Positions 36,617 through 37,368 of a stretch of DNA of 64,000 bases are shown here, in pieces (position 1 is the first letter of the stretch; every line of letters begins with the position of its first letter). Where the stretch lies: assembly GCA_031835245.1 (NCBI GenBank), contig JAVKOQ010000119.1:69501-133500 (forward strand), written 5' to 3'. The DNA comes from Balamuthia mandrillaris (lineage: Eukaryota > Discosea > Longamoebia > Balamuthiidae). The notes beneath the pieces are model-generated. The model saw only the letters and a program-made list of their open reading frames with translations, did not search any database and was not told where the DNA came from. A program made the position numbers and the translations under genes.

Positions 36617-37368
36617 ACTTGTTTCATGTTTTAAAGGTTTTTCAATTCACTCACTGCAGGAACCACAAGAGGAAAAGGAGAAAGAAGCAGAGGAGGTCGA
36701 AGGAGAGGAGGAAGACCAAGAAATAGAAGACCTGATACAATATCTCTACACCCAAATGCTCAGTGCCTCCCAATTGAAAAAGAGAGAGGCTCCCTCTATC
36801 CCGATCGACAAATTGAAAGGCCTGCTGCGGATCGCTCAACAAGACCCTCGCATGTTAGCTCTATTCGGGCTTCAGAATCCCGCTATGTTGCTCACTGAAT
36901 GGGAGAAATGGAAGAAAGCCAAACTGCTTGAAGACTTGACTCCTGAAAAGAAGAGAAAGCGTGACGCTCATCTTTGGCGGAAATGGTTGCGCTCTTACAA
37001 ACATCGTCTGTCCATGGAAGCACAGAGCGATGATGGTACGTCTTTTCGCTCTATTATCATGGGTTTGTATTCTCTGATGCTACCCTCATTTTTTTGTTTT
37101 TACTTTAGAAGTTGAAGAGCTGAATAAGAAACGCGTATCCGTAATGAACCTGAGTAATCCAAAGTACATCCTGCGAAACTGGATAGCCCAACGAGCTATC
37201 GAAGCAGCTGAAGAGGGCAATTATGACGAAGCTAAACACCTGCTTCGTATATTGGAAGATCCTTACGCTCAACAACCCATTACAGACGAATTGGCTGAGC
37301 AGGATGGCCGACACTACGGTCGTTCTGCGCCAGAAGAGCTTGACATTTGTGTTACCTGATCTTCATAA
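34629..37368 (+). CDS. SELENOO: Selenoprotein O (protein adenylyltransferase), TGA read as selenocysteine
   Basis: Pseudokinase-fold enzyme that AMPylates proteins, usually mitochondrial. Eight exons: 34629-34838, 34893-35047, 35199-35427, 35533-36111, 36192-36338, 36410-36568, 36660-37035, 37109-37368; 704 residues. Hallmarks: [87 protein letters not shown] and NQPEMCHWN. The last codons read ACC TGA TCT TCA TAA, that is T-U-S-S-stop, matching the redox C/U-S-S end of the family (bacterial homologues end CSS). Without Sec decoding the protein stops at 37359. No SECIS was certain by eye. The N-terminus shows no clear mitochondrial presequence. Confidence 0.9.
35094..35131 (+). repeat. (GA)n microsatellite in SELENOO intron 2
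   Basis: GA run on the coding strand, an exception to the usual CT orientation of intron repeats in this window. Confidence 0.85.

Follow-up and report, generated by a model that had tools for sequence, protein, structure and literature searches.

A probable selenocysteine codon in SELENOO of Balamuthia mandrillaris and a candidate SECIS element divided by 72 nucleotides

The SELENOO gene of Balamuthia mandrillaris, an amoeba known to infect the human brain, ends in a tail that we read, with considerable confidence, as CVT-Sec-Ser-Ser (Sec for selenocysteine), the TGA at position 37357 being decoded via a putative SECIS element (37625-37748) whose helix II has a break in the 3' strand and that splicing or side-folding would restore to a working form. 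The frame and its tail, the conservation of both in two gene copies, the genes of a Sec machinery and four further TGA genes sharing one SECIS type are directly visible in the genome. From the tail, the machinery genes and the SECIS letters shared by five genes it follows that the TGA is very probably a Sec codon, and we infer Sec in the SELENOO protein. The encoded protein resembles an ordinary SELENOO; what is unusual is the split SECIS.

The window, i.e. the whole stretch of 64,000 nucleotides analyzed here, belongs to contig C118, in a eukaryotic assembly of 64.8 Mb. It contains SELENOO with the following features, the exon boundaries having been picked by eye.

34629..37368, + strand: SELENOO gene in 8 exons, a single open frame with GT..AG introns, 704 residues with the TGA taken as Sec
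34629-34838, 34893-35047, 35199-35427 and 35533-36111, + strand: SELENOO exons 1-4
36192-36338, 36410-36568, 36660-37035 and 37109-37368, + strand: SELENOO exons 5-8
37357..37359, + strand: in-frame TGA, residue 702, read as Sec from the frame and the homologue tails
37360..37368, + strand: Ser-Ser-stop (TCT TCA TAA), as in homologues ending V[T/S]CSS

Pfam SelO matches lie above the cut-off over the gene, which means that the SelO domain is present, and the structure chains 6eac (E 4.6e-99), 6iii, 6k20 and 9jym match the protein. A public record, "Selenoprotein O [Balamuthia mandrillaris]" with 701 aa, shows 100% identity to it and terminates with ...DICVT at the TGA. In the letters of the window the 3' coding end consists of TGT GTT ACC (37348-37356), the TGA, TCT TCA (37360-37365) and TAA (37366-37368); a preliminary description made from the letters of the DNA had given the same frame, CVT TGA TCT TCA TAA, which is thus confirmed. 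The tail is kept whole in a second copy of the gene on contig C5, which has a CDS identity of 97.6% (2064/2115) and whose flanks resemble those of the window both upstream and downstream over the stretch read. In both copies the TGA occupies the antepenultimate codon position, before Ser-Ser-stop.

The preliminary description had also expected members of the family to end in Ser-Ser after Sec or Cys. Among the 120 homologues listed of 7992 scored, 7 end in V[T/S]CSS, 109 end just before the TGA site (VT 100, VS 8 and IT 1, the record from Balamuthia itself included) and 4 end elsewhere. Many of the 109 are animal SelO records in which the next codon is presumably UGA for Sec, the record having been truncated. 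By these counts among the listed homologues, both the position of the TGA, which takes the place of Sec or Cys in other members, and the Ser-Ser-stop behind it fit the family, as had been expected. When the collected loci were searched for tails of the type V[T/S]-stop/Cys-[S/A]-S-stop, the two SELENOO copies were returned and nothing else.

The genome also contains a divergent second SelO-like gene (C27 and C297; loci L010 and L011) without CVT-Sec-Ser-Ser, the copy on C27, which was read, ending QDLLSGD-stop, and more SelO-like pieces on C471, C29 and C374.

A TGA alone is insufficient as evidence for Sec because the genome also uses this codon as an ordinary stop: a gene read as glutathione reductase (C385, C10) has the end HPTAAEELVTMK-TGA. 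The TrxR-family matches with TGA on these two contigs were accordingly rejected as a selenoprotein.

The Sec-insertion machinery that the preliminary description had taken to be implied by its reading was found in the genome in the form of tRNA-Sec, SepSecS, eEFSec and SPS2; of the components that it had named for a search, SBP2 was the one not recognized among the loci read. The tRNA-Sec gene (C111) scored 70.9 bits, the cut-off being 47, with a model that also exceeds this value in 5 of the 14 prokaryote genomes used as controls. The piece bearing it has 46.6% GC, near the 47.4% of the TrxR locus described below; ARAGORN reported no tRNA-Sec at this locus. SepSecS (C38) is represented by five exon matches, eEFSec (C95) by a match to euk_SelB_III (E 8.1e-19) and by an exon reading YTLVDCPGHASLIRTIIGGAQIIDMMMLVIDVTKG, which we take to be typical of eEFSec, and SPS2 by matches on C403, C37 and C438. 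The top matches of the SelB family were rejected as eEFSec, since they read as EF-Tu (L045), EF-1 alpha (L027 and L030) and bacterial IF-2 (L031). For SBP2, 17 L7Ae-domain matches were obtained genome-wide and five loci were read, none of which was recognized as SBP2; a candidate on C44/C324 was rejected in this way, features of SBP2 not being recognized in it.

Locus L031 belongs to contig C3 (570 kb; L016, L031, L073 and L074), three pieces of which have 25-28% GC. The contig carries bacterial-looking genes (an IF-2-like frame) and reductase matches with internal TGA. It resembles a contaminant or associate of the Mycoplasma type in which TGA is decoded as Trp, and two weak tRNA-Sec matches on it are probably other tRNAs of that contig.

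A search for the selenoprotein families SelO, Rdx, selD, Sep15/SelM and TrxR yielded, besides SELENOO, four genes that are probable selenoprotein genes of Balamuthia with one local SECIS type. In each of the four the TGA is at the Sec position of the family: SelW1 (C336, C84) reads CTS-TGA-G; SelW2 (C91) reads EYCTS-TGA-GYYSY and SPS2 (C403, C37) KG-TGA-GCKVPQ, each joined across an intron; and TrxR (C208) ends KKGC-TGA-G-stop, its exon matches being below the whole-family cut-off. For Sep15/SelM there was no match in the genome, and the control genomes also gave nothing. The 3'UTRs of all four genes contain an element in which ATGAA-N11-AAA is followed by an apical part and then by a 3' strand that pairs and closes with T-GA, the base 3' of the GA being C in three of them and G in SelW2. 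The element of TrxR is uninterrupted. A MAFFT alignment of the SelW and SPS2 elements was unsuitable for a covariance model.

In the 3'UTR of SELENOO the corresponding candidate starts 268 nt past the TGA and reads, from 37625 to 37748, ATGA, AGAGCCAACCCC, AAA, GCTCCTAATTGCTGGAGAC, GGGTT, 72 nt, GGCTCT and GAC. Its parts, and the probable end of the 3'UTR, are as follows.

37625..37628, + strand: putative SECIS 5' core ATGA, in the context ATGAA-N11-AAA as in the 3'UTRs of SelW1, SelW2, SPS2 and TrxR
37629..37643, + strand: helix II 5' strand (AGAGCCAACCCC) and unpaired AAA, from folds and the letters of the window
37644..37662, + strand: apical part with the mini-helix CTCC..GGAG, form-2-like in predicted folds
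37663..37667, + strand: upper half of the helix II 3' strand, GGGTT, predicted to pair with AACCC at P 0.93-0.98 (151-nt segment, unspliced)
37668..37739, + strand: 72-nt insert dividing the SECIS 3' strand (or, equally well, 37669-37740, since a G is common to both flanks)
37740..37748, + strand: lower half of the helix II 3' strand, GGCTCT, and quartet GA (GAC), from the descriptor and the letters of the window
37860..37865, + strand: AATAAA, likely the poly(A) signal ending the 3'UTR, kept in copy 2

Both copies of SELENOO have the letters of the quartet (ATGA at 37625-37628 and GA at 37746-37747), and the unpaired AA is spaced as ATGA-N12-AAA, as in the four other Balamuthia genes. When the insert is left out, GGGTT and GGCTCT pair with AGAGCCAACCC as an 11-bp helix II. 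Between the two copies there is no change in the 52 bases of the core (37625-37667 plus 37740-37748), compared with 6 in the 72 bases of the insert, and 3 in the next 52 bases; an unchanged core next to an insert with 6 changes fits a constraint on the core, the numbers being small.

A split descriptor (ATGA-N12-AA, an 11-bp arm that can be split once by at most 120 nt, and GAC) matched once in each SELENOO 3'UTR copy and, over the two strands of the window (128,000 bases), once, at the same site; in dinucleotide-shuffled UTRs it matched in 3 of 5000, with GA alone in 8 and with GA and Watson-Crick pairs only in none, figures that are optimistic because room for an insert was made in the descriptor only once the candidate was known. 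A looser descriptor (ATGAA-N11-AAA, TGA, one mismatch) matched in 10 of 20,000 shuffles and once in the window, and these figures are optimistic for the same reason. It also matched L073, L068 and L042 among the collected loci (584,470 bases on both strands, overlapping); these three are not known selenoprotein 3'UTRs, and we regard the matches as arising by chance.

The preliminary description had proposed to look for a SECIS element downstream of the frame. By Rfam (SECIS_1) none is found between 37000 and 38400, because the element is divided by 72 nt; in its place stands the split candidate, in both copies. Genome-wide the same model gave 4 matches, all below threshold and none in the selenoprotein genes named here. 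As it matched none of the further loci scanned with it (SelW1, SelW2, SPS2 and SELENOO copy 2), it is a poor test in Balamuthia; a match to it is not itself a defining feature of a SECIS, and the lack of one is a weak negative. The joint absence of a SECIS and of the Sec machinery had been named as speaking against Sec; the machinery was found, and the SECIS as a candidate. The proposal that the TGA is probably a Sec codon is therefore supported by the conserved tail, the machinery, the four further TGA genes and the SECIS candidate.

Two other features of the 3'UTR may be recorded. A long CT repeat (37425-37540), in place of which the C5 copy has a CCT/CCCT run of several hundred bases, is flanked by GTGCGT at 37414 and TAACAG at 37553; it is possibly an intron of the 3'UTR. 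Downstream of the SECIS candidate there is a strong hairpin (37778-37817) with a perfect stem of 10 bp (CCATTCATCC...GGATGAATGG), nearly unchanged in copy 2.

In the mechanism that we propose, the 3'UTR element 37625-37748 would recruit a SECIS-binding factor and eEFSec with Sec-tRNA; the UGA would then be read as Sec and the ribosome would halt at the TAA three codons on. The working SECIS would arise once the insert has been spliced out or has folded aside as a hairpin of its own.

Were the TGA an ordinary stop, SELENOO would end with CVT, either because Sec has been lost or because the public annotation is correct. The termination of the public record at this codon, the lack of an intact SECIS in the 3'UTR by Rfam and the use of TGA at the end of another gene of the genome agree with such a reading; we nevertheless consider it very unlikely, since Ser-Ser-stop and a conserved UTR element follow the TGA in both copies and the Sec machinery is present. 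It is also improbable, if less so, that the TGA encodes Sec with the help of an element other than the split one. Other stable hairpins occur in the 3'UTR, and a generic pairing scan gave the split-element pair a score of 5.8 and other pairings scores of up to 10. However, the descriptors modeled on the ATGA-N12-AA or ATGAA-N11-AAA core that the four other genes have match nowhere in the SELENOO 3'UTR but at the split element, and the other pairings, which are without this ATGA...AA core, were set aside as SECIS. Within the preferred explanation, in which the split element serves as SECIS, the question is what the insert is. A dispersed repeat was rejected, because a genome search with the insert as query, in which very common words are skipped, had no matches outside the two SELENOO copies. 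Its first 14 bases, with 3 mismatches allowed, have 18 matches in the window, the sole exact one being the insert itself.

Two readings of the insert, both sub-cases of the preferred explanation with odds that overlap with its own, were given about equal weight. The insert may be an intron, the SECIS being assembled from two exons after splicing (e.g. with 37670-37740 removed and GGGTTGT joined to GCTCTGAC), to which we assign a chance somewhat below even. Its 71 nt would fit the seven SELENOO introns, which measure 54-151 nt; near its 3' end is CTGAC, the A of which is 12 nt ahead of the last AG (counted by eye), and three of those seven introns have CTAAC close to their 3' end; and spliced products are predicted to fold as an unbroken SECIS-like stem. 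Placed on the hairpin predicted for the insert of the window copy, 4 of the 6 copy differences break pairs, 1 keeps a pair and 1 is unpaired, with no double-sided change, which also favors an intron. What is missing is a good donor: the GT common to both copies is GTCTCT, and a C at +3 occurs in none of the seven SELENOO donors, while an alternative donor is GT in one copy and GC in the other. There are also competing AGs, including the pyrimidine-rich TTGCAG within the insert, some spliced products are without a clean SECIS fold, and mammalian SECIS elements are reported to be whole in one exon (PMC3316567). With the same reserve it can be supposed that the insert is retained in the mRNA as a side hairpin, the SECIS then being a three-way junction on helix II. 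The insert folds more stably than its shuffled versions, 300 in number (z -3.65 and -2.66), and for the window copy (unspliced 151-nt segment) the lowest-energy fold combines the full split helix II with the hairpin. On the other hand, modeling of the unspliced RNA gives the lower helix II half a P of only 0.31-0.35 in the window copy and 0.18-0.21 in copy 2, whose lowest-energy fold is without this half by 0.5 kcal/mol, and the pairs of the window-copy hairpin drift in copy 2. In copy 2's own predicted fold, no pair is broken by the copy differences.

If the intron reading is right, an intron inside helix II divides the encoded SECIS into two parts and the Sec signal exists only after splicing; a transcript retaining the insert would give the 701-residue form without Sec, and splicing could control Sec insertion. 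We put this forward tentatively, with less confidence than the intron itself. It would be a direct case of splicing creating a Sec signal. The public SELENOO protein, which is very probably three residues too short, is corrected by the tail given here, Balamuthia has five probable selenoprotein genes (SELENOO included), and scans of genomic DNA for SECIS elements can overlook a split one.

In titles and the beginnings of abstracts we found no literature on selenoproteins or selenocysteine in Balamuthia, and none on an intron inside a SECIS or an extra SECIS junction, including in the parts seen of PMC7539508, PMC4561486 and PMC2874816. SELENOO with a C-terminal Sec is described from vertebrates (PMC3316567) and from Ostreococcus and Porphyra (PMC2375036); the SelO domain, CVT-Sec-Ser-Ser and a 3'UTR SECIS are common to these and to Balamuthia, whose SECIS differs in being split by 72 nt and whose lineage is a new host. 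With eukaryotic form 2 SECIS elements and those of Dictyostelium (PMC2375036) the Balamuthia candidate has in common the ATGA core, the unpaired AAA, the mini-helix and the 3' GA; it differs from them in that its helix II carries the insert, on the 3' side. In Dictyostelium UGUA directly precedes the core (PMC2375036), whereas by eye none was seen in the Balamuthia elements, which share ATGAA and T-GA. Introns in the 3'UTR are reported for mammalian SelH, SelT, SelV, SelW and TR3, where the SECIS is in the exon of the stop codon or wholly within the last exon (PMC3316567), and the 3'UTR intron of mouse MsrB1 spares the SECIS (PMC2901347). If the insert is an intron, that of Balamuthia sits inside the SECIS, in contrast to the mammalian elements, which are whole in one exon. 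In Acanthamoeba castellanii, also a free-living amoeba, TrxR-L is a predicted selenoprotein having a 3'UTR SECIS with AAA (PMC8038987). In the Seblastian prediction this SECIS is uninterrupted (PMC8038987), like that of Balamuthia TrxR, whereas the candidate of SELENOO is split.
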